DNA from: a virus
IMG/VR virus record: IMGVR_UViG_3300025687_000443
Location: 1 to 20,139 of that record
DNA length: 20,139 nt
Reading direction: 5' to 3' (one strand)
The notes under the pieces were generated by a model. It saw only the letters and a program-made list of their open reading frames with translations. It did no database searches and was not told where the DNA came from. Shown here piece after piece: positions 4,714-20,008 of the stretch (its first letter is position 1; the number at the start of each line of letters is the position of its first letter). The position numbers were made by a program, and so were the translations under genes.

Positions 4714-5691
4714 TTAATTCTTCAGCATGAGTTTAGCTAACTGATCAAAACCAAAGGACTTGCCGCATCTACGACATTTTGTTTGGTTTTTTCCGTGAAC
4801 TTGCTCATCTCCGCAAGAGTAACAAGTAATGTACTTGAATCCTCGTCCAAGTGGCAAAGATTCAGTTTGAATAACTGAGCCACCAGTTCTATCAGTGGGC
4901 GCTGAAGCTCCACCATAACCAGCCACTAAAGCTTTAGTAAGCTCATCTATCTGATTGATCTTATCTACGATTCGATCTTTCAGCACTGACTGCACTAATT
5001 TGTTGACATCTAGATCTGCATCTACTTCTATACCTTGTGACTTAGCGAGATCTACTATCTGCTCAATCTTCTGTCGAACTGACTCTGCTGTAGCTTGTCT
5101 AGTAATCTGGCGAAAAGATGGGGCATCAGTCTGAACAAGATGCATAGCTTTCTTAATCAGTAGCATGTCAGCTTCATGATTAGTAGCACTCTTATCTAGA
5201 TTTAATGGCTCTACTAGCGTATTCTGGTTAGCTGGCGTGAATGTTAGTGCTACCTTAGTGATCTTAGTGCGAGCGAGTAAGCGAGGATCAGTGACCCCTC
5301 TCATAATAACGCCACCTTCTACTGAAGCTTTCATCTTAAGTGGACAATCTTCTTTATGTATGTTCCTTAAAATTGCTGCAGCTGCTCGAGCATTCGGGTG
5401 ATCTTCATCATCAAACAAATAACCACTAGCATAAATATATGGAGCTTTAACTTTATTCCAATAATATCTATGCCTTTCGTTCTCACAATCTTCTTCTTTT
5501 AAAATCTTTTTTGCTTCTGTAATTCGACCCAGAGTGTTATAAATTCCGGCACCATGATTATCGTTCCATAATCCTAAACCATTCTCTAAATGAGAAATAT
5601 CAGCACCTTCTACACTTAGCAATTCACCTTGTGTATCACGAATTTCACTTCCTGCTAAGCAATCAAAATATAGCGGCTTTTTATTTGACAT
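4714..5691 (-). CDS. Prohead maturation protease with capsid-like motif and C-terminal zinc ribbon
   Basis: A 325-residue protease expected to cleave scaffold and capsid N-termini inside the prohead. The catalytic part (about 1-165) has H46 (in NDNHG) and S123 (in KASVEGG), fitting the His/Ser layout of phage prohead serine proteases. A helical linker (about 170-255) follows. Residues 253-279 share 17 of 27 positions with capsid residues 28-54, including QTESL. The last part is a zinc ribbon with C290, C293, C306 and C309, an unusual addition. The start ATG overlaps the stop of the GIY-YIG gene (TAATG), with AGG 8 nt upstream. Family assignment is from motifs and gene order; roles of the two C-terminal pieces are inferred. 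Confidence 0.82.
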   Translation of the reverse strand: MSNKKPLYFDCLAGSEIRDTQGELLSVEGADISHLENGLGLWNDNHGAGIYNTLGRITEAKKILKEEDCENERHRYYWNKVKAPYIYASGYLFDDEDHPNARAAAAILRNIHKEDCPLKMKASVEGGVIMRGVTDPRLLARTKITKVALTFTPANQNTLVEPLNLDKSATNHEADMLLIKKAMHLVQTDAPSFRQITRQATAESVRQKIEQIVDLAKSQGIEVDADLDVNKLVQSVLKDRIVDKINQIDELTKALVAGYGGASAPTDRTGGSVIQTESLPLGRGFKYITCYSCGDEQVHGKNQTKCRRCGKSFGFDQLAKLMLKN

Positions 5692-6344
5692 TATAAATAC
5701 CTAAATTTATAGCCTTTACTACTCTTATATCGACCATTTAAACAATCTCTAACTTGCTCTCGACTTAATCCAAGACTTATAGCACATTGAGTCTTATTTA
5801 TCCATATACCTATAATATTACCAGACAAAGAAACTTCAAAAGGCTTTGATCCATTAGATTCACAATTTTTAATAATTGAACTTACTGAATGAAAACGTCC
5901 ATGCATTGGATTTCTATCTCCAGCTGCAGATTTTCTTTTTCGTTTTGTTTCAGATATCTTCTTTTTAGTTTCTTCTGAAAGACTTTTTCCTAACCAAAAT
6001 TTTTTATTGTTTTTTGATACAGATTTTGAAATTTTCTCTTTAGTTTCAGCATTTAATATATGAGAGCAGCCACCAATTTGGCAATTATATCCATTCTTTA
6101 CACTCTTATATAAAGCTATAAGGTTTTTCTCAACTCTATTCAACTCATCGATACTAGCCAAACTATGCACGAGAACTTTTATTTCAAAACAATTTATCCC
6201 ATATTTATTAATAGCATGATGTATAGGTGTTTTGGGATTTTTAGAGCTTTTGATATGCTGTTTCCAGCGAACTTCAACTGTTTTTGAAGTTTGCCCAATA
6301 TATACTTTTTTATTTATCTTATTTCTAATTAAATATACAATCAT
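5691..6344 (-). CDS. GIY-YIG homing endonuclease (Seg-like) with NUMOD motifs
   Basis: A 217-residue free-standing homing endonuclease. The GIY-YIG core (1-90) shows Y4, the VYIGQT motif at 14-19, R26 and E72 in the expected order. NUMOD3-type DNA-binding repeats follow (about 97-135, KEKIS and KKKIS) with NPMHGR at 145-150. A NUMOD1-like helix-turn-helix closes the protein (about 178-212). This resembles the SegA-E proteins of T4. No clear Shine-Dalgarno sequence precedes the ATG at 6344. Its stop codon overlaps the start codon of the prohead protease by one base, so ribosomes finishing it can start the protease. It lies just downstream of a strong terminator, so it may have its own promoter or depend on read-through. 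Confidence 0.92.
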   Translation of the reverse strand: MIVYLIRNKINKKVYIGQTSKTVEVRWKQHIKSSKNPKTPIHHAINKYGINCFEIKVLVHSLASIDELNRVEKNLIALYKSVKNGYNCQIGGCSHILNAETKEKISKSVSKNNKKFWLGKSLSEETKKKISETKRKRKSAAGDRNPMHGRFHSVSSIIKNCESNGSKPFEVSLSGNIIGIWINKTQCAISLGLSREQVRDCLNGRYKSSKGYKFRYL

Positions 6345-6450: not shown

Positions 6451-6816
6451 TTAATCTTCAAACTCTTTATACATATCTCCACTAGCATGCAGTTCAGCTA
6501 ACTCCTCAAATACTTCATCCTTACGCAATTTCTCTAGTGCTGCTGATTCAGTCTGTTTCACTGTCTCAACAGATACGCTAGTTAAATGTGCTATCTCGAT
6601 GTCCGATAGCTGAGAATCAGACTCAGATTGAAGAAAGTTAAAGAAGCAGTAGTTGTTAACTTGGCTCGATATAGCCCATGGACAACCGGGCAGTTTAGCT
6701 TCTTCCTCTTCAGTCAACTCTCTATTAGCAAACCTTAAAGCCTTCAATCTCTGTACCGCTAGAGGGCAGAAGGTTTTAGGGCATTGCTTAAGTTTTCTGG
6801 GACATCGAGAGTCCAT
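6451..6816 (-). CDS. Cys-rich protein with sigma-70 region-4-like helix-turn-helix
   Basis: A 121-residue protein. The first half has five cysteines (C5, C12, C17, C45, C57), three of them in CP pairs, suggesting a metal or Fe-S site. The second half (about 68-99) looks like sigma region 4: an EIA helix, a turn (TSVSVETV), then a recognition helix ending AALEKLRK. It may help direct host RNA polymerase to phage promoters, but no sigma region 2 is present. The frame is open back to 6939, but the upstream part overlaps the HNH gene and reads as a hydrophobic shadow, so the ATG at 6816 is preferred. No Shine-Dalgarno sequence is visible, so translation is probably coupled to the HNH gene that overlaps it by 29 nt. 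Confidence 0.6.
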   Translation of the reverse strand: MDSRCPRKLKQCPKTFCPLAVQRLKALRFANRELTEEEEAKLPGCPWAISSQVNNYCFFNFLQSESDSQLSDIEIAHLTSVSVETVKQTESAALEKLRKDEVFEELAELHASGDMYKEFED

Positions 6817-7462
6817 TTTCGATTGCGGTTTTTGCAAAATGCTCTTCCTCCCATAACGGCTGAGTATTTGAATAATGATAGAGAGACATGTCGTTAAAAT
6901 CAGTAGACAGCGGAACGATATGATCGATATGCCAACCATTTACACCATAGTTTTCCCAAGTCATTCCTGGTTGGAACTTAGACTCAAGATACTTTCTATA
7001 ATCATTGATTGAGCAGCCTAAAAATTTTACGATTGATGAGCTTTTTGATCCAAAAGATTTTTTTAAGCGGCTTTTAATATTTTCTCTTATTTTTGTAGGT
7101 AAATGCTCTTTTTTTCTTTTTAATTGGTACTGTATCTTCTTTTCTTTTCTATTGTTTTGAGAGCACGATGCGCAGAAATGATATCGTGATCCTTTAAGAG
7201 AAACAGAGCCACATTGACAAAAATTTTTAGCTAAGCGATTTTCTCGATACTTTAAATAATATCTTTCCTTACTTTTTATACGTCTATTTTCTTTTCTTGC
7301 GGGATCAGAAGCGATCCTGGCATTGCAAGCTCTCTTATCTCTTTTTCTTTTTAGGAGATAACATATATCACACAATTTTAATCTTTTATGCGATATATGC
7401 GATCCACAACTACACAACTCTGACTTAATATAAGAATTTATATTAGAGTCCATCTTAGACAT
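6788..7462 (-). CDS. HNH homing endonuclease with two zinc ribbons
   Basis: A 224-residue free-standing HNH endonuclease. Two zinc ribbons are visible (C17-C19 with C31-C34, and C82-C84 with C97-C100), then a basic helical linker and the HNH core with HIDH at 178-181 and a late QPLW box. The segment before the core (LGC, then LESKFQPGMTW) is shared with the other three HNH proteins here, so all four are one family. The ATG at 7462 overlaps the end of the gene upstream by 8 nt; the ATG at 7453 is an alternative. The 3' end covers the start of the sigma-like gene. A 15-bp near-repeat flanks the insertion. Confidence 0.9.
   Translation of the reverse strand: MSKMDSNINSYIKSELCSCGSHISHKRLKLCDICYLLKRKRDKRACNARIASDPARKENRRIKSKERYYLKYRENRLAKNFCQCGSVSLKGSRYHFCASCSQNNRKEKKIQYQLKRKKEHLPTKIRENIKSRLKKSFGSKSSSIVKFLGCSINDYRKYLESKFQPGMTWENYGVNGWHIDHIVPLSTDFNDMSLYHYSNTQPLWEEEHFAKTAIENGLSMSQKT
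6808..6822 (-). repeat. Flanking near-repeat of HNH insertion, copy at downstream gene start
   Basis: TCGAAAATGGACTCT on the minus strand contains the start codon of the sigma-like gene. It matches the copy at 7445-7459 at 13 of 15 bases, including nine exact bases from ATG. Confidence 0.6.
7445..7459 (-). repeat. Flanking near-repeat of HNH insertion, copy at HNH start
   Basis: TCTAAGATGGACTCT on the minus strand contains the second ATG of the HNH gene and the stop codon of the gene upstream. It is the partner of the copy at 6808-6822. Confidence 0.6.
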
Positions 7463-8025: not shown

Positions 8026-8871
8026 TTATTGTTTCAGCTTGAAACGTTCACAGACTAGTTTTACTAACTGAATCTCTTCTCTAGTTAAAGTATGAGCCTC
8101 TTCTCCAAATAGAGAAGACAGCTTATTATTCAGAAACTCTTTGATATCGAGTTCTAGTTCATCAAAGATCGGTCCTCGTTGCTTGATGATTCGCTTAGTG
8201 AGTATAGAGTTGATGGCATTGGCACGATTAAGTTTCTTCTGCTGCTCGGTTTCTGTTGCGGTGGAGGCTTGATAAGAAACTTCTTCGTCGCTAGGAACAC
8301 TAGAGTGTGCTTGATCAACAGCATCTTCTGGCGCGCTGTTAAGGACTGCTTGTTTGACAGCACCATCATCTGCAGTCTTGCTCTTTGACATGCTATCGAA
8401 ATCCTGTAGTGTAACTTTTTTAAAGTTGAATCTTTCTGCAAGCTTCTCATACTCTCTATAGGCAGCCACGAACTGAACTCTAGTTAATGGCTCGTTGTTT
8501 GCTACACATCGTTGCCAGTGAGCTTCTTTATCTTTATCATAGAATAGGAAGTACTGAGCATTATTTTTATACTCAAACTCTAGTAGAGGCTCTAAATCAT
8601 CTTCAGTTAACAGACTTTTTCTACTAAATACATTGGGCCAAACGAACTCGCCATAGATAGTGCGGTCGAAAACTACGTCTTCTCCGTCATACTGCATATA
8701 TAAATCAATTAGCTCATCTATATAAGATGGACCAACATAACCTGGTTTAAAGTATTTCTTATCTGGGGCAGACATATGAACTACCTTGTAGCCTTGCTCC
8801 TCATACATTTCGGCTACTGTCGATTTCCCCGAACGATCGACGCCCTCAATTAAAATGAAGCTCATATGCAT
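8026..8871 (-). CDS. Thymidylate-kinase-like P-loop protein with extra C-terminal domain
   Basis: A 281-residue protein. Residues 1-155 look like a deoxynucleotide kinase: the Walker A motif GVDRSGKST is at 10-18, in the same form as bacterial TMP kinases, and VVFDRTIYGE (66-75) matches the DR(x)nGE-type substrate-binding segment. Residues about 155-212 are a low-complexity acidic linker, and about 212-281 form a charged helical domain that kinases of this type lack. GGAG precedes two in-frame start codons, ATG at 8871 (4 nt away) and ATG at 8865 (10 nt away), so the start is uncertain by two codons. The HNH gene upstream overlaps the start by 26 nt. The reaction is inferred from the family; the added domain is unknown. 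Confidence 0.7.
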   Translation of the reverse strand: MHMSFILIEGVDRSGKSTVAEMYEEQGYKVVHMSAPDKKYFKPGYVGPSYIDELIDLYMQYDGEDVVFDRTIYGEFVWPNVFSRKSLLTEDDLEPLLEFEYKNNAQYFLFYDKDKEAHWQRCVANNEPLTRVQFVAAYREYEKLAERFNFKKVTLQDFDSMSKSKTADDGAVKQAVLNSAPEDAVDQAHSSVPSDEEVSYQASTATETEQQKKLNRANAINSILTKRIIKQRGPIFDELELDIKEFLNNKLSSLFGEEAHTLTREEIQLVKLVCERFKLKQ

Positions 8872-9610
8872 CTTTCTCCAGCAATTTATTATTTTTAGAG
8901 TTATTTTCGTCTGCCCACATAGGCTGTAAATTATCTAGCGACCAACAATGCTTAAATGATTCTGAATTTGGATCATCTAAGTTTTTGTAAAAATATTCGC
9001 CATCTTTTTTATAATTTATGGGAACAATATGATCGACCTCCCAACATCTTGTTTTGTTTAGCTTTCTTCCATAATTATCCCAAGACATTCCTGCCTGGAA
9101 CTTAGATTCTAAATGTTTTTTGAGATCTTCTATAGACCAATCAACATGACGCAATTGTCCAGTTTTATTTTTTAAGCAATTGTAAATGTTAGATCTAATA
9201 TTTTTAGCCAAACGTCTGCGAACTAAAATGTCTTTCTTTATGAGAGAATATTCGGAAAGGGACATATTCATCTTAGCAGCACCATGAAGATTTGATAAAT
9301 ACTCTTTAGAGTATTTTTGCTTTTTGGTTATGCTCCCTCTTTTTCCTGCTAATGATCTAGATTGTACTGTATGACTTAAAAAATTCTTGTTTCCTTTTAA
9401 AGCTTTGCTAATTTTACTTTTCTGCTCGTTAGAAATAACCTTACCTTTAGCAGAACAAGATGCGCACGATGTAGTTCGGTTTTTGGGCATATAAGAGCGT
9501 TTAGCACCACATCGATCACAATAGTGCATGTACCATCTTTGTGGCTTTTTTTTACCAGTTTTCTTACATATATATTGTTTTACAATAAAATTATTAATAT
9601 CAAATGGCAT
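8846..9610 (-). CDS. HNH homing endonuclease with zinc ribbon and NUMOD3
   Basis: A 254-residue free-standing HNH endonuclease. A zinc ribbon (C31, C34, C49, C52) is followed by a NUMOD3-like repeat (about 60-76, QKSKISKALKGNKN), a basic linker, the family box LESKFQAGMSW (167-177) and the catalytic core with EVDH at 191-194. The final catalytic region (DNLQPMW, then N) is present, so it is likely active. GGAGG precedes the ATG at 9610. Its last dozen codons (about LLEKDAYELHFN) read through the ribosome-binding site and start of the kinase gene. It sits between the portal gene and the kinase gene. Confidence 0.9.
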   Translation of the reverse strand: MPFDINNFIVKQYICKKTGKKKPQRWYMHYCDRCGAKRSYMPKNRTTSCASCSAKGKVISNEQKSKISKALKGNKNFLSHTVQSRSLAGKRGSITKKQKYSKEYLSNLHGAAKMNMSLSEYSLIKKDILVRRRLAKNIRSNIYNCLKNKTGQLRHVDWSIEDLKKHLESKFQAGMSWDNYGRKLNKTRCWEVDHIVPINYKKDGEYFYKNLDDPNSESFKHCWSLDNLQPMWADENNSKNNKLLEKDAYELHFN

Positions 9611-11656: not shown

Positions 11657-13192
11657 CTAAAATGACCAGATGAACCCACCATCGCCGCTCATGGTCTCAT
11701 CATCATCATCTGCTAGCTGAGCAGTGTTAGATATATTTCCTAGTTTACTCTTATCGGTAGGCTGATCTAGATCATGAGCTAATATACCTCGAGAGCGCAC
11801 GAACTCTTCAGGAGATGGCATCTTTAAGTAGTTACCTTGAGAGTCTACTGCTCTACTAGATCCCAAATCTAGATCATCAGCATAGACCATCTTAGCTTTA
11901 CCGAATAAGTCATACATAGCGTAGCGCATCGCGTCGAGCCAGTGATCCGATCCCTTATCTGGCTCGTCGGTTACGCGTCCAGCTGCATCAAGCTTATAGT
12001 GGTACATCTGGAATTCATGGATGATGTGAGCACAAGTATCTTTAGCAAAGAAGATCTTAGGTTCAGGAGAAGCAAGACTTCTCAACCACTTCTTCACTAT
12101 CTGTATTCCACCTTTAGTATCTTTAGTCTGCTCAGATGGGCAAGGCAAACCTTCCTGCTTCATAGTTACTGCATCACCTGGGTTAGCTAAGTCAGGGTAG
12201 TAGAGCTGGACCCTATACATGTTGTGCCACTTAGCTTTGATTGTTTGTATCCAGGTAGGGTTATTAGTATAAGTTTGACCTTCTGTTCTGACTACGTAAA
12301 CGTTTTCTCTATTATCAACAAAAAACACTACTAATGTTGAGGGGTTAGACCAACCCCAGTCTATGCCGGCGTACGATGGCAACTTCATCTGATGACATTT
12401 TTTTACAAATATGTCATGAGTACAGGTTCCAGGATAGTCAAGACCAGTGAGGACTTTCCACATCCCGTTCCAGTCTTTTACGTGTAATTTTTCATCAAAT
12501 TCTTTATAGATAATGCCTTCTACAGAAGGTTTTAGGTTAAAGAGCTGAGAAATTGCCCAATCTGCGCCGTTTTCCATCGCCTTCTTTATCGGGTCACTGA
12601 TAGGTTTTAACATAGAAGAAGTAGAAGTCTGCTTCTTAGAATCACCTAGACACAATGCTCCGATAGGGCAAGTTAAGCACTTCTCTCCTGGAAAGGTATT
12701 CTTGCGATACTCGTTTTGCTTCTGTACTGACAGCTGATTAAAGATATCTTCAGTAATTATAGAGAGATCATCTTCATTATAGTATGCTACAGTTGGTTTA
12801 GTGCCTGATCTAGAATCAGGGCATCTCTCAGAGAACTCGAGCACTGTCCACTTCTTAATAGTTCTTCCTGACTTCTCTGCGTCTTCTATCTGCTGGTTCA
12901 TCAAGCCATAGCGAGACTTTCTCGTAGAGATTCCAACTCGCATAGCTTTTCTCTTGCCTTTAGAGTCGAGCATGCCAGCGATGTCCTTGAAAGCCTTAAC
13001 ACTCTCTCCAGTAACTGTGTCGATCTCGTCTACGACTACTAGTGGTACGTGCGGACCGTTGCAATTATGATGTAATATCATATCATTAGATAAGTAAGCA
13101 TTACTAAATTGCTTATTCTCATTATTGTGAGCTACTTCAATCTGAGCAACTTTTTTTATGCCTACTTGTGTCTTTTTTTTCAACTTAGGCAT
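11657..13192 (-). CDS. terL: TerL C-terminal piece: intein C-fragment + Walker B and nuclease domain
   Basis: This frame starts with the C-terminal part of an intein and continues as the large terminase. From the ATG at 13192 the first 43 residues contain an intein block F-like stretch and end MILHHN (block G: penultimate His, terminal Asn), immediately followed by Cys, the expected +1 residue. The C-extein begins CNGPHVP and has Walker B VVVDEID, so it needs the Walker A half from another frame. The nuclease domain shows aspartates in YAGIDWGW, in YYPDLANPGD and in GSDHWLDAMRY. A four-Cys cluster (CLTCPIGALCLG) occurs between the two domains. AAAAAAGG lies 8 nt before the ATG, so the piece has its own ribosome-binding site. 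A GTG at 13201 is an alternative start. Confidence 0.88.
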   Translation of the reverse strand: MPKLKKKTQVGIKKVAQIEVAHNNENKQFSNAYLSNDMILHHNCNGPHVPLVVVDEIDTVTGESVKAFKDIAGMLDSKGKRKAMRVGISTRKSRYGLMNQQIEDAEKSGRTIKKWTVLEFSERCPDSRSGTKPTVAYYNEDDLSIITEDIFNQLSVQKQNEYRKNTFPGEKCLTCPIGALCLGDSKKQTSTSSMLKPISDPIKKAMENGADWAISQLFNLKPSVEGIIYKEFDEKLHVKDWNGMWKVLTGLDYPGTCTHDIFVKKCHQMKLPSYAGIDWGWSNPSTLVVFFVDNRENVYVVRTEGQTYTNNPTWIQTIKAKWHNMYRVQLYYPDLANPGDAVTMKQEGLPCPSEQTKDTKGGIQIVKKWLRSLASPEPKIFFAKDTCAHIIHEFQMYHYKLDAAGRVTDEPDKGSDHWLDAMRYAMYDLFGKAKMVYADDLDLGSSRAVDSQGNYLKMPSPEEFVRSRGILAHDLDQPTDKSKLGNISNTAQLADDDDETMSGDGGFIWSF

Positions 13193-13607
13193 CAACAACA
13201 CCTTTTTTCTTCTGATTACGCAAAGATGATCTATAACATTTTCTGCATTTGGGACCAGAGTACCGTTTGCTGGTGCTGCTTACAGAGCATGATACACATC
13301 TCTTAGCGTCTTTAATATCGACACTCTTTCCAACGCTTTCTAATGATATTGTGTTGAAGCTTAGTATCTCGTGTTCTTCAGTAAGATCTTTTAGCTCTAT
13401 CCAACCTTTGTCAGTCATTATTTTGTGATCTAGTGTACCAGTAAAAATAGTGCCATCATCCAACTCTATTTCTATACATTCTTTCTCTATCGAGTTATTG
13501 TCTTTAACTTCTGTGAAGCCATCAGGGGCTAATATTAGATCACCTGGTTTTACTTCATGTAACTCGACTTCTTGAGCTTTAGAATACTGAATAGATATTT
13601 GTAGCAT
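13185..13607 (-). CDS. Intein middle piece (Hint block B) plus zinc ribbon
   Basis: A 140-residue frame that contains no terminase sequence. Residues 11-82 are typical intein: VELHEVKPGDLILAPDGF, then an acidic strand and TGTLDH at 56-61 (block B TxxH), then TDKGWIELKDL. The last part (about 100-135) is a zinc ribbon (C104, C107, C121, C124), the kind of module found at the N-terminus of HNH proteins in this window, perhaps a remnant of an older intein endonuclease. The ATG at 13607 directly follows the TAA of the preceding frame in the same phase, and AAGGG lies 7 nt upstream. The 3' end overlaps the next piece by 8 nt, with that piece in the +1 frame. Confidence 0.75.
   Translation of the reverse strand: MLQISIQYSKAQEVELHEVKPGDLILAPDGFTEVKDNNSIEKECIEIELDDGTIFTGTLDHKIMTDKGWIELKDLTEEHEILSFNTISLESVGKSVDIKDAKRCVSCSVSSTSKRYSGPKCRKCYRSSLRNQKKKGVVDA
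13201..13208 (-). promoter_or_regulatory. Ribosome-binding site of the TerL C-terminal piece
   Basis: AAAAAAGG on the minus strand lies 8 nt before the ATG at 13192, inside the last codons of the preceding piece. It supports independent translation of this fragment rather than a sequencing frameshift. Confidence 0.6.
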
Positions 13608-15092
13608 TTATGGACCCTTATTTGATTTAATAAAGTTATCTTGAGCCCATAATGGCTGAAGATTCGTATAATGCTGCAGATTTTCTAACTCCTCTAACGT
13701 TTTTGCAGAACTTACTGGAAGTATATGGTCTATGTGCCATTCACCATGATTCTCCCAAGTCATTCCAGGCTGGAACAGAGATTCCAAATGCTTTCTTACT
13801 TGCTCGATTGAGCATCCAAGCAGTAATTCTATCTTTTTAGCTCTATTAGATCCAGAGACTCTTTTAATATCATTAGTTATTCTAGTCCTTATTCTTCTAG
13901 CAAACTGTTTATCAGCGGGAAGGGAGGAATACCAATGTTTAAAGCACAGACCTTTCTTTCTTACTAATTCAGTGCAGCTTTCCACACTGCATACTTTCTC
14001 CATATTACGAATACGATGTTGCTGATAATGAGCACAACATAGTTTACGTTTAGTGGCTGGCTTATGGCAATCTATAACCGAACATGCTTCTTTTTCACTT
14101 TCTGATAATATTCGATAATGACTAGAACATAAACCTCTATGAGAGATGTAATTATTACATCCTTCTTCATTACACTTACCACGCTTTAAAGAACGCTGCT
14201 CTTCATAGTGATTTCTGCATAAATCCCGTTTATAAACTTTACTGCTACATTCATCTGTCATACAGGTTTGTGTAGATTTGCACTTTTCACATTTTATTGT
14301 TCTAATAGAGTAGATTGGAGCACCACAGTTAGGAGATGGGCAGATATTGATTGGGCGTTTTAGCTCTTTTTTTCTATAATAGGAGGAATCGAGAGTGTCT
14401 TCTGATTTTAGCTCCTCTATTGATTTTAGCCCATTAGTGGTCAATATAGAAGATCCTGATTGCACTCTAAGATGGAGACCATTATGTTTAATGTGGTAGA
14501 TAGCTTTTTTAATGGTTACTTTTGAGTTTTCTGTCAAGCATGCCTTTAGAGTGCACGGGAGCACTTCGATAGTTGCTTGTATACTCTCCCCAGTATACTT
14601 GTCTATTAAATTGAAAGATGACTTATCCATGTTCATCTTATCGAGTATCTTAGTACCATCTACCTCTTGCTCGATAACTGGGCGAATCTTATCGTTTAAG
14701 AGAAACTTAGTCTGATACTCGTAGCAGCGCTTGGCCTGAGATAGAATTGCTCCTACATGAGCTACTTCTCTCTGATCATGAAGCATAACTAGAAGCTCAG
14801 CAATAGCAACGCCAAGCGTTTTTCCAGAACCTCTTGACGCAACATATAGTAATTCTTGAATATTTTCTGGGTTATTACCATTAACGCAGACATCATAGAT
14901 CTGCCAAACTGAATCAAAAGGGTTACAGTTAGAGTGTCTAGAAACTGTAGCATCTGGCAGATCGATGTTTAGATGATATTTAATCCAGTTCTTGAGCTGT
15001 TGAGATGTCTTACAAGAAGTGAGCAGCAACTGGCGTCGCTGCTCCATAGTGAGTTTAGTTTTGTTTTTAGAACTCTTACTCGAATTCGTCAT
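13608..15092 (-). CDS. terL: TerL N-terminal piece + intein Cys1 + zinc-finger/HNH endonuclease
   Basis: A 494-residue composite. Residues 1-184 are the N-terminal half of the large terminase with Walker A ASRGSGKT at 85-92. Residue 185 is the intein Cys1 (CLTENSKVTI). Residues about 206-234 form a second Hint-like stretch (SILTTNGLKSIEELK). A zinc ribbon (C251, C256, C268, C271) is followed by four regular fingers of the form C-x4-C-x9-C-x2-H at 277, 307, 337 and 368. The HNH domain follows (LESLFQPGMTW, HIDH at 453-456, NLQPLW), ending just before TAA. The start overlaps the terS end by 17 nt. Terminase ATPase needs the Walker B half from 11657-13192, so splicing or trans-association is required. 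Confidence is high for the domains, moderate for how the pieces act. Confidence 0.9.
   Translation of the reverse strand: MTNSSKSSKNKTKLTMEQRRQLLLTSCKTSQQLKNWIKYHLNIDLPDATVSRHSNCNPFDSVWQIYDVCVNGNNPENIQELLYVASRGSGKTLGVAIAELLVMLHDQREVAHVGAILSQAKRCYEYQTKFLLNDKIRPVIEQEVDGTKILDKMNMDKSSFNLIDKYTGESIQATIEVLPCTLKACLTENSKVTIKKAIYHIKHNGLHLRVQSGSSILTTNGLKSIEELKSEDTLDSSYYRKKELKRPINICPSPNCGAPIYSIRTIKCEKCKSTQTCMTDECSSKVYKRDLCRNHYEEQRSLKRGKCNEEGCNNYISHRGLCSSHYRILSESEKEACSVIDCHKPATKRKLCCAHYQQHRIRNMEKVCSVESCTELVRKKGLCFKHWYSSLPADKQFARRIRTRITNDIKRVSGSNRAKKIELLLGCSIEQVRKHLESLFQPGMTWENHGEWHIDHILPVSSAKTLEELENLQHYTNLQPLWAQDNFIKSNKGP
13615..13619 (-). promoter_or_regulatory. Ribosome-binding site of the intein middle piece
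   Basis: AAGGG on the minus strand lies 7 nt before the ATG at 13607, within the last codons of the HNH domain. Stop and start codons are adjacent (TAAATG), allowing reinitiation. Confidence 0.6.
13935..14264 (-). repeat. Four tandem C-x4-C-x9-C-x2-H zinc-finger units
   Basis: Four coding repeats of 30 to 31 codons, each with identical Cys/His spacing and a conserved basic-Leu-Cys step (for example KRDLCRNHY, KRKLCCAHY). They sit before the HNH domain and probably extend the DNA target contact. Confidence 0.85.
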
Positions 15093-16489: not shown

Positions 16490-17485
16490 CTAACTTGATC
16501 CAGCTAACTCTGATAAAATATCTTTTAGCTTACTCTTATCTAAGCTGCCATCGTAAATCTTGTCTACATATTCATTCAATATAGACTTAAAATCTTTAGA
16601 TTTTATCTTAGCTTGCTTTGCTTTCTCAGAGTTAGTATATTTTGGCCTAAACTTCAAGTTTCTAGCTTTCCTGATCTTTTCTACCCTTGGATCAAATATA
16701 AGAGCATTTACTTCAGCCCTAGGTCCACATACGTCTAGATTCCATACATTTGTAGAGTCAGTGTTGGACTCGATGAAGCTAACTTGAGCATCTAGATCGC
16801 TACTAGGAATTGTTAAGCGCTTCCACTGGGGAAGAGGTGACTTGATGAATGAAAGAGATCTAGATTCCGAGTCCAGCAAGTAAACACCTTTCTCCTGATC
16901 TACATCATCTACAGATTGCGCAAAAGGAGTCCCTGGATAAAATACCTTGTCAGAAAGCCATTGGGATCCATGAATATGACCGCTGATGATCAGATCGGCA
17001 GAAACGTCTTCTAGATGCACCTCTGTATCAGGGGCAAGATATCCACCGCCATAGTTAGCACCAGTAAATGTTTGATGTACGAAAGCTATTGGCTTAGTCT
17101 CTAGCGGGAAATCAGATGGATTGTGAATGTAAGGGATGAAGGAGAAAAGGGAGTCATGAAATGGCTTATCATATACAGTGAAACCTTTGATTGACTTGAA
17201 TGGTATCAAGGCATGATAAGTAGAGTCATTTGGCTTAAACATATCATGATTACCTAATATATAACGGTAATCTCGACATAAATCTAAAACATCATCAACA
17301 TGCTTCTTGAACATACCAGCTATCTCAGAACGAATCACTGCGTGATCGTTAAAAGTGTCACCTAAATTTATCACCATGTCCGGCTTCTTTTCTTCAATTA
17401 TCTCTAATATCCAATTCAAAAATTGTGAAACTAATGAGATATTAGATAATTTTAGGTGCGGGTCACCGATAAGTAGGATCTTCAA
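16490..17485 (-). CDS. Recombination nuclease subunit, gp47/SbcD/Mre11-like phosphoesterase
   Basis: A 331-residue metallophosphoesterase, the nuclease half of a gp46/gp47 (SbcCD, Mre11/Rad50) complex that resects DNA ends for recombination-dependent replication. All metal-binding motifs are present in order: GDPH at 7-10, GDTFND at 42-47, GNHD at 78-81, H137 and GHIHG at 169-173. The C-terminal quarter is basic and helical and probably binds the ATPase partner, which is not in this window. The start is TTG at 17485, because the conserved first strand KILLIGDPH follows at once; AAAAGG lies 8 nt upstream. The start lies inside the end of the HNH gene (23-nt overlap). Two stop codons (TAG TAA) end it. 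Confidence 0.92.
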   Translation of the reverse strand: MKILLIGDPHLKLSNISLVSQFLNWILEIIEEKKPDMVINLGDTFNDHAVIRSEIAGMFKKHVDDVLDLCRDYRYILGNHDMFKPNDSTYHALIPFKSIKGFTVYDKPFHDSLFSFIPYIHNPSDFPLETKPIAFVHQTFTGANYGGGYLAPDTEVHLEDVSADLIISGHIHGSQWLSDKVFYPGTPFAQSVDDVDQEKGVYLLDSESRSLSFIKSPLPQWKRLTIPSSDLDAQVSFIESNTDSTNVWNLDVCGPRAEVNALIFDPRVEKIRKARNLKFRPKYTNSEKAKQAKIKSKDFKSILNEYVDKIYDGSLDKSKLKDILSELAGSS

Positions 17486-18071
17486 GTTTTGCGCCTTTTG
17501 CTAGATTATCCGCAGCCCATAATGGCTGTAGATTAGTGTAGTGACAAGCTTTCTTGAACTGCTCTGGATCGGAAAGATCAAAATTAGAGAGAGGGATGAT
17601 ATGGTCAATGTGCCAACCTTTATGACCATAATTATTCCAAGTCATTCCTGGTTGAAATTTAGATTCTAAGTATTTCCTTAATTCTTCAACGGTGCAACCT
17701 AGATGTCTAATTGCAGAAGGCCACCCTTTTCTTCCTGTAATAGCATGAGACATGCGTGATCTTAAATTAGATGAAAGCCTATACAATATATCTACAGATT
17801 TACGCTTAATATCATAAGCATTATTATAAGCTCTTTTACGATCTTTATTCTTTTCTACCCACTTTTTAACTGCACGACGATGTGATTCTGAAACCTTATC
17901 TTGCTCAACTGACTTAGGGTTAGCTTTCCGCCATTTTCTCTGCAGTTCTCTTCTACGCTCTACATTGTTATTGTCCCAACTCTTTTGCCTACACTTACTT
18001 GAACAAAATTTACTATTAAAATGCGCGTTATAAATCGTATTACAAAACTGACAAGACCTGTTAGAATACAT
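17463..18071 (-). CDS. HNH homing endonuclease with zinc ribbon
   Basis: A 202-residue free-standing HNH endonuclease. A zinc-binding module (C7, C10, C23, C27) is followed by a strongly basic helical linker (about 30-95), the family box LESKFQPGMTW (135-145), the catalytic HIDH at 154-157, N180 in NLQPLW and N189. It starts 8 nt after the uvsX stop with AAGG before the ATG, and its end overlaps the gp47 start. It therefore separates two recombination genes and could move using their repair activity, as for other homing genes in T4-like phages. Confidence 0.92.
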   Translation of the reverse strand: MYSNRSCQFCNTIYNAHFNSKFCSSKCRQKSWDNNNVERRRELQRKWRKANPKSVEQDKVSESHRRAVKKWVEKNKDRKRAYNNAYDIKRKSVDILYRLSSNLRSRMSHAITGRKGWPSAIRHLGCTVEELRKYLESKFQPGMTWNNYGHKGWHIDHIIPLSNFDLSDPEQFKKACHYTNLQPLWAADNLAKGAKLEDPTYR

Positions 18072-19277: not shown

Positions 19278-19682
19278 TTATGCGAACCACCTATCTATCT
19301 GTTGCTGGACTTCTAGCTTGATCTTGATATCTTCTACTTCTTCTTCAGTTAGTTCTTTACCATCTAAGTACCAACGTTCTGATTCTATAGAACCATCTTT
19401 AGAGTACCAAACTTGAGCAGGACCATCTAGTCTGTGTAGATTATCATATAAGCGCCAGCATTCTGAACTTATAGAACCATTTTCGTGGTACCAAACTTGA
19501 GCAGGACCATCTAGTCGATGTCGTTTACCATTTACCCACCATTGTTTTGAATAGATAGAACCATCTTCATAATATCTAACTACAGCTGGACCGTCTAGTC
19601 TATGTTGCTTATCATCTAAGTACCAGCGTTCTGATTCTATAGAACCGTGTGATCTTCTGAAGATCTTATGTTCTAAGCTCAT
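19278..19682 (-). CDS. LDGPA-repeat protein (MORN-like), paralogue A
   Basis: A 134-residue protein made of about 22-residue units of the form 'HRLDGPAxVxYYxDGSIxSExWYLDGK'. Three LDGPA units and an extra DGSI/WYLD piece at each end are visible. The short strand-turn-strand units resemble MORN-like or similar beta-repeat proteins known in large phages and giant viruses; their function is not established. The C-terminus leaves the repeat with ELTEEEVEDIKIKLE, a charged helix. The ATG at 19682 overlaps the previous stop (ATGA), with AGG 6 nt upstream supplied by the conserved end of the previous gene. Confidence 0.75.
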   Translation of the reverse strand: MSLEHKIFRRSHGSIESERWYLDDKQHRLDGPAVVRYYEDGSIYSKQWWVNGKRHRLDGPAQVWYHENGSISSECWRLYDNLHRLDGPAQVWYSKDGSIESERWYLDGKELTEEEVEDIKIKLEVQQQIDRWFA

Positions 19683-20008
19683 AGTTCACCTACTAACATG
19701 AGTTCAGTTAGTTTTTCTATCTCTAACTTGATATTGTAGTCTTCTACTTGTTCTTTAGTTAACTCTTCATCATATAAGTACCATTGTTCTAATTCTATAG
19801 AACCATCTTCATAGTAATGAACTATAGCTGGACCATCTAATCGATGTAGATTACCATACAATAACCATACTTCTGCTTCTATGGAACCGTTTGAGTAGTA
19901 ATAAGCCATAGCTGGACCATTGAGTCGATGAAGCTTACTATCTAAGTACCAATATTGTGATATTATGGAACCATCTGGTTTTCTATTTACTATATGATCT
20001 AGATTCAT
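19679..20008 (-). CDS. LDGPA-repeat protein (MORN-like), paralogue B
   Basis: A 109-residue paralogue of the next gene, with two full LNGPA/LDGPA units. It has the same C-terminal helix (ELTKEQVEDYNIKLE), then LTELMLVGEL, an end shared with the gene fragment upstream. The ATG at 20008 overlaps the previous stop (TAATG), with AGG 7 nt upstream. The tandem array probably arose by gene duplication. Function unknown. Confidence 0.75.
   Translation of the reverse strand: MNLDHIVNRKPDGSIISQYWYLDSKLHRLNGPAMAYYYSNGSIEAEVWLLYGNLHRLDGPAIVHYYEDGSIELEQWYLYDEELTKEQVEDYNIKLEIEKLTELMLVGEL
19688..19712 (-). repeat. Conserved gene-end repeat, copy 1
   Basis: Twenty-five bases that match 20014-20038 at 24 positions. 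They encode the shared ending LTELMLVG and the Shine-Dalgarno sequence of the following gene. Confidence 0.8.

Follow-up and report, generated by a model that had tools for sequence, protein, structure and literature searches.

Naturally split inteins described in the literature searched consist of two pieces, with the break at the canonical S0 position, at S2 (AceL TerL, GOS TerL) or at S1 (VidaL, PolB16; PMC13014065). Among the natural atypical forms, N-terminal intein pieces (IntN) of 15-37 amino acids (aa) have been reported (PMC13014065). In artificial S1 splits, IntN pieces of 10-12 aa are functional (PMC3620165). Moreover, PMC3834826, citing Sun et al. 2004, describes engineered three-piece DnaB inteins with S1 and S0 breaks that work, in agreement with what a first-pass annotation of the locus treated here had said of artificial three-piece inteins. 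That annotation also considered a natural three-piece intein to be new; none was found in a full-text collection of 5.4 million open papers, so that its absence from the literature is likely, if not certain. The locus lies in the terminase (TerL) gene of a phage, IMG/VR record IMGVR_UViG_3300025687_000443, and the window analysed is the complete record of 20139 base pairs (bp). On balance, its sequence points to a natural three-piece (S1 plus S0) class-1 split intein in TerL, in which three polypeptides would splice in trans.

The anatomy of the locus can be observed directly. The class-1 intein residues C1, TxxH, HN and C+1 are all present, spread over three open reading frames (ORFs). The first-pass annotation had assigned Cys1, TLDH, and HHN with Cys+1 to three separate frames, and each was located where it had been placed; it was equally right that the first two frames are in phase and split by a TAA followed by an ATG, and that the third lies in the +1 frame. 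What it did not contain is that an HNH homing endonuclease makes up most of the first piece downstream of Cys1. ORF2 carries TLDHKIMTDKGWIELKDLTEEHEIL, which corresponds to intein block B, and has a match to intein_Nterm TIGR01445 (E 0.0021) that lies below the cut-off, while the TerL C-part matches Terminase_6C PF17289 (E 9e-6) and phrog_5653 (E 1.9e-26). For modelling only, ORF2 and the C-terminal intein piece (IntC) were joined in an artificial reading frame, with piece 1 not included. The resulting model, with a mean predicted local distance difference test (pLDDT) score of 69 and a core of about 90, matches solved inteins in PDB, gp41-1 first (E 4e-7) and also DnaB inteins, and in it ORF2 and IntC together have the predicted HINT fold.

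The three-frame arrangement is real. A separate IMG/VR contig, L002, matches the window from 14267 to 9675 with 40 single-nucleotide polymorphisms (SNPs) over 4593 bp and no indels, and it shares with the window the TAA-ATG, the A-run and ATGCCTAA, so that both breaks are seen in two strains. L002 was the sole second contig found for the exact junction of break 1. That L002 keeps both the TAA and the frame change argues against a sequencing or assembly error. Such an artefact might be suspected from the position of the frame change near an A-run, and the first-pass annotation had proposed that its reading would fall if one frame were restored by an indel around 13203-13208 together with a sense codon in place of the TAA at 13608-13610; this is contradicted by the independent strain, which is identical at both breaks, and the start of ORF3 is moreover conserved in relatives, which leaves an artefact highly improbable.

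The site of insertion and the origin of the second break are apparent from about 100 related TerL loci, retrieved with the TerL C-part as query. Many of these TerLs are uninterrupted at the site: in one group the sequence reads LKA-CNGPHV with zero bases between the parts, and a second group differs by one residue at the site. As the empty sites join exactly, the segment from Cys1 to Asn43 is an exact insertion, and the splice junction LKA-CNG put forward in the first-pass annotation is the exact extein junction of the uninterrupted TerLs. In about a dozen distinct phages this site is occupied by an intein with a single break. In these two-piece relatives the TerL-N frame ends in an N-half of ~80 residues that holds both C1 and TLDH, followed by at least one other ORF and then by an IntC frame that opens, like ORF3, with M[AS]K[IV]K (or near) and ends in [HK]N/CNGPH; C1 is preceded by LPCTLKA in the window as in all of them. 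One ORF that separates the halves encodes an HNH endonuclease with about 42-46% identity to that of the window in L051/L139, L070/L135, L122 and L124/L140; in L058/L059 and L063 its place is taken by a different large ORF. In L003 the position held by endonucleases in relatives, between the split-intein halves, is occupied by an ORF for a trypsin-like protease (L003:5242-5985; PF13365 E 1.5e-6). At one locus (L098) the intein at this TerL site is contiguous, and in all relatives TerL at this site is either uninterrupted or interrupted by a complete intein. The start of ORF3 aligns with the IntC frame starts of the two-piece relatives, hence break 2 can be read as an inherited S0 split for which no frameshift explanation is needed; judged by this alignment, it is ancestral and shared with the relatives.

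The first break has a different history. C1 and block B stand in a single frame in the relatives, whereas in the window they occupy separate frames, and by this comparison break 1 is new in the lineage of the window. Residues 1-12 of piece 1 joined to ORF2 from residue 11 (CLTENSKVTIKK + AQEVELHEVKPGD) form a composite, CLTENSKVTIKKAQEVELHEVKPGD, that aligns gap-free with residues 1-25 of nearly all relatives (the loop is longer in L063) and has its GD motif at the 25-residue spacing of the family; ORF1 and ORF2, taken across the insert, give an N-half of exactly family length. A 6-bp direct repeat, AAAGCT, stands at exactly the register of the composite, a result reached in ~1.7% of shuffles, and the sequence between the repeats comes to 927 bp, which is divisible by 3. 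When 2989 other Cys-led 12-mers were scored for their fit to the family N-halves, positions 2-12 of piece 1 surpassed 99.7% of them; with the same scoring, the first 12 residues of ORF2 itself showed no fit to the start of the family N-half. Composites joined a few residues later score about equally, so that the join is placed only to within a few residues. The most parsimonious history would be the insertion of an endonuclease element into the IntN loop after about residue 12, the S1 position. This differs from the AceL-TerL type (S2, IntN about 25 aa, rest in one polypeptide), since the break falls after residue 12 and the remainder is divided over two polypeptides; the first-pass annotation, which mentioned AceL-TerL in connection with a very early first split, did not have the S1 position, the AceL position being S2. 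The tail of ORF2 is similar to the zinc-ribbon start of other HNH endonucleases, and it probably goes back to an older endonuclease that occupied the canonical site.

Residues 13-60 of piece 1 were also considered as a second, degenerate N-half, a candidate that was dropped because its profile score was no better than that of shuffled sequences. A related scenario has ORF1 and ORF3 splicing alone as a two-piece intein, with ORF2 as a relic. It takes some encouragement from the ~48 further piece-1 residues before the endonuclease, which weakly resemble block A and include predicted strands of low confidence; those residues, however, match the family profile no better than shuffled sequence, the TxxH and the strands from residue 13 to block B are supplied by ORF2 only, and ORF2 is unchanged between the strains. 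This scenario is very unlikely.

The stop codon between ORF1 and ORF2 raises the question of whether the intein is a two-piece intein after all, the TAA being read through or bypassed so that ORF1-ORF2 would form one IntN with an internal endonuclease and ORF3 the IntC. The shared frame of ORF1 and ORF2 and an insert length that is a multiple of 3 fit such a scheme, but TAA is the least leaky stop codon in bacteria, it serves as an ordinary stop elsewhere in the window, and here it is directly followed by an ATG with a possible Shine-Dalgarno sequence; read-through is therefore improbable. As for the Shine-Dalgarno sequences that the first-pass annotation had reported at both internal starts, their positions stand (AAGGG at 13619-13615, AAAAAAGG at 13208-13201), while their strength is moderate only, as 8% and 14%, respectively, of other same-strand ATGs score equally well.

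Whether TerL still functions in the three-frame state can be approached through the SNPs between the window and L002, two strains that both have the breaks. In the TerL C-part, 9 changes are synonymous and 1 is nonsynonymous (P 6e-5 under neutrality), and in the portal gene the counts are 17 and 2, respectively, while the endonuclease, with 5 synonymous and 6 nonsynonymous changes, is not distinct from neutral (P 0.15). ORF2 and IntC (552 bp) have 0 SNPs (P 0.006 under uniform placement). TerL-C is thus under purifying selection in the three-frame state, and TerL is therefore probably functional. This bears on the possibility that the intein is decaying, the endonuclease insertion having abolished splicing in a lineage that is defective or uses another terminase. 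Decay would be in keeping with an arrangement found in one lineage only and with relaxed constraint on the endonuclease (6 nonsynonymous, 5 synonymous). However, selection on TerL-C was strongly purifying after the breaks, with one of ten changes nonsynonymous, C1, TxxH, HHN and C+1 are intact, ORF2 and IntC are unchanged between the strains, and two strains persist; neither relaxed selection on the host protein nor lost catalytic residues, the marks of an inactivated intein, were found. We regard decay as unlikely. Since TerL-C has been maintained since the three-frame state arose, a dead intein is unlikely unless TerL works unjoined, TerL-N and TerL-C associating without a covalent link, perhaps by way of the intein fragments. 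Split enzymes do sometimes complement, and selection on TerL-C would look identical in that case. Yet the interruption falls within the ATPase domain, with Walker A on one side and Walker B on the other, the nucleophiles and terminal Asn have been kept, and every relative has an uninterrupted TerL or a complete intein at the site, so that we see only a slim chance of this.

We thus lean towards a functional natural three-piece intein that came about when a homing endonuclease entered the S1 loop of an intein that was split beforehand; expression, assembly and splicing of the three pieces are what we infer from the sequence. In this scenario an ancestral two-piece intein, already split at the canonical endonuclease site, would have been invaded by an HNH element after IntN residue 12. 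As the element ends in a stop and an immediate start codon, three polypeptides would result: TerL-N with C1 and 12 intein residues and the endonuclease fused behind, a free middle piece of 140 aa with block B, and IntC with TerL-C, the translation of ORF2 and ORF3 being presumably coupled via TAA-ATG and ATGCCTAA. One HINT domain would be assembled from the three: its first strands, with C1, would come from piece 1, the TxxH-bearing middle from piece 2, and the last strands, which hold the Asn, from piece 3. C1, TxxH, Asn and C+1 would then perform the standard splicing steps, releasing full-length TerL with the junction LKA-CNG and freeing the endonuclease with a short IntN peptide at its N-terminus.

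Several observations weigh against this scenario. L002 starts inside the endonuclease, short of Cys1, so that the Cys1 junction is known from the window record alone; a degenerate DNA scan of IMG/VR for this junction found no record besides the window, and the whole three-frame arrangement is confined to one species-level lineage. The IntN of ~12 aa is followed by ~300 further residues on the same chain, and an AlphaFold model of the ORF1 tail with ORF2 is of low confidence, with a pLDDT of about 44 around Cys1, the docking of piece 1 not being visible. The Shine-Dalgarno signals of ORF2 and ORF3 are only moderate, and the zero SNPs in ORF2 could also stem from recent recombination. Moreover, an S1 split was tolerated by 4 of 14 inteins in the laboratory (PMC3620165).

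Table 1. Features of the interrupted TerL locus in the window
Feature	Position	Strand	Basis or remark
ORF1: TerL N-extein, Cys1 and 12-aa intein piece, HNH homing endonuclease	15092-13608	-	494 aa
TerL N-extein, first part of ORF1	14541..15092	-	184 aa, Walker A SRGSGKT; joined directly to C-extein in empty-site relatives
Intein piece 1, putative S1-type IntN (C1-LTENSKVTIKK)	14505..14540	-	12 aa; fit and alignment to two-piece N-halves
Cys1 codon (ORF1 residue 185)	14540-14538	-	
AAAGCT direct repeat at insertion site, left copy	14502..14507	-	
AAAGCT direct repeat, right copy	13580-13575	-	
Putative inserted element, with homing endonuclease, TAA and ORF2 start	13575..14501	-	927 bp, 309 codons, frame-preserving; repeat at register restoring family length
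Stretch RVQSGSSILTTNGLKSIEELKSEDTL between 12-residue piece 1 and endonuclease	14361-14504		
HNH homing endonuclease domain fused behind piece 1	13611..14360	-	phrog_5351 E 3e-9, phrog_28061 E 1.4e-8
TAA stop between ORF1 and ORF2	13608..13610	-	ATG 13607 directly after; also present in L002
ORF2, intein piece 2 (middle)	13185..13607	-	140 aa; TIGR01445; 44% identity to L003 N-half
Intein part of ORF2, residues 11-84	13356..13577	-	homologous to family N-half from residue 13 onward
Block B TLDH (TxxH), ORF2 residues 58-61	13425..13436	-	invariant across two-piece family
Zinc-ribbon-like ORF2 tail	13224..13304	-	59% identity over 27 aa to L097 ORF; 35% to L051 HNH-type ORF
ATGCCTAA, ORF3 start overlapping ORF2 stop	13185..13192	-	ORF3 ATG at 13192; +1 frame
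Intein piece 3, IntC, C-terminal ILHHN	13064..13192	-	43 aa; start position and length class as in two-piece relatives' IntC
Terminal Asn; Cys+1	13066-13064; 13063	-	
TerL C-extein from Cys+1 (CNGPHVP...), Walker B VVVDEID and nuclease domain	11657..13063	-	468 aa; PF17289, phrog_5653

Beyond the locus, a search of GTDB genome contigs with an ORF2/L003 alignment gave no match, no relatives of piece 1 with the endonuclease start were found in IMG/VR, and records of isolated phages yielded distant TerLs only, the best at about 30% identity (Myxococcus phage Mx1). An Rfam scan of the window for group I and group II introns gave no match at gathering thresholds. Further interruptions of TerL are seen among the relatives: at L140:3187-10618 the gene is apparently interrupted by three inteins, of which the one at Walker A (GSGK/C...SHN/T) is large and contiguous, that at LRA/C split and that at FVKK/C (...SGN/C) contiguous, while L025 has the Walker A and FVKK/C inteins without the split one. 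The stretch RVQSGSSILTTNGLKSIEELKSEDTL of the window is weakly like block A of the relatives' Walker A intein (52% over 25 aa). At least five more genes for putative endonucleases (DUF7487 type, GIY-YIG, HNH) lie between structural genes of the window, at 386-1948, 5691-6344, 6788-7462, 8846-9610 and 17463-18071, and since L002 has a different HNH ORF behind the portal gene, endonuclease elements swap between strains. In another gene, at L004:2832-7509 (also in L005), a DNA polymerase III alpha split intein has a C-terminal frame that opens with an HNH/NUMOD-like domain before IntC, a layout that is the mirror image of that in the window, with a second intein upstream. A helicase gene at L030:2426-5297 is arranged in fractured-gene style, with an N-half intein, a free-standing ORF and an IntC frame. 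Finally, two adjacent ORFs of repeated LDGPA...DGSI...W units, YwqK-type-like, occupy 19278-20008 of the window.

If the three proteins really splice, the locus would be the first case in nature of a design known until now from the laboratory only, and one whose cause can be read, in that a lineage with an existing S0 split received an endonuclease at S1. It would also suggest a route for the origin of atypical S1 splits, a question raised by VidaL, PolB16 and AceL TerL. With three frames, one predicted junction and two-piece relatives as controls, the system is compact and testable, and, if active, it would offer a new tool for three-input protein ligation.

This brings us back to the described systems. 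The locus has an S1 break with an IntN in the range of 10-12 aa, an S0 break before block F and fragments on separate frames, and the whole is absent from empty-site homologues. The fractured-gene two-piece inteins gp41-1 and AceL NrdHF, the kind to which the window's two-piece relatives belong, resemble it in being broken at S0, with block B on one side and block F on the other, and in having a homing endonuclease gene close by; the window adds the S1 break and a predicted third polypeptide, and its endonuclease is fused behind IntN rather than lying free between the halves. AceL NrdHF is, in addition, a class 3 intein, whereas that of the window is class 1. VidaL and PolB16 OarG (S1) resemble the window in their very short IntN and in the S1 position, and AceL TerL and GOS TerL (S2) in their very short IntN and in having TerL as the host protein. 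All four are two-piece inteins, whereas in the window a further break, at S0, divides the large C-terminal part, and the IntN comprises 12 aa before the insert. The engineered Ssp DnaB and Rma DnaB three-piece inteins come with both break positions and the same division into C1, block B and HN. Those, however, are artificial, whereas the intein of the window is natural, resides in TerL and carries an endonuclease on piece 1.

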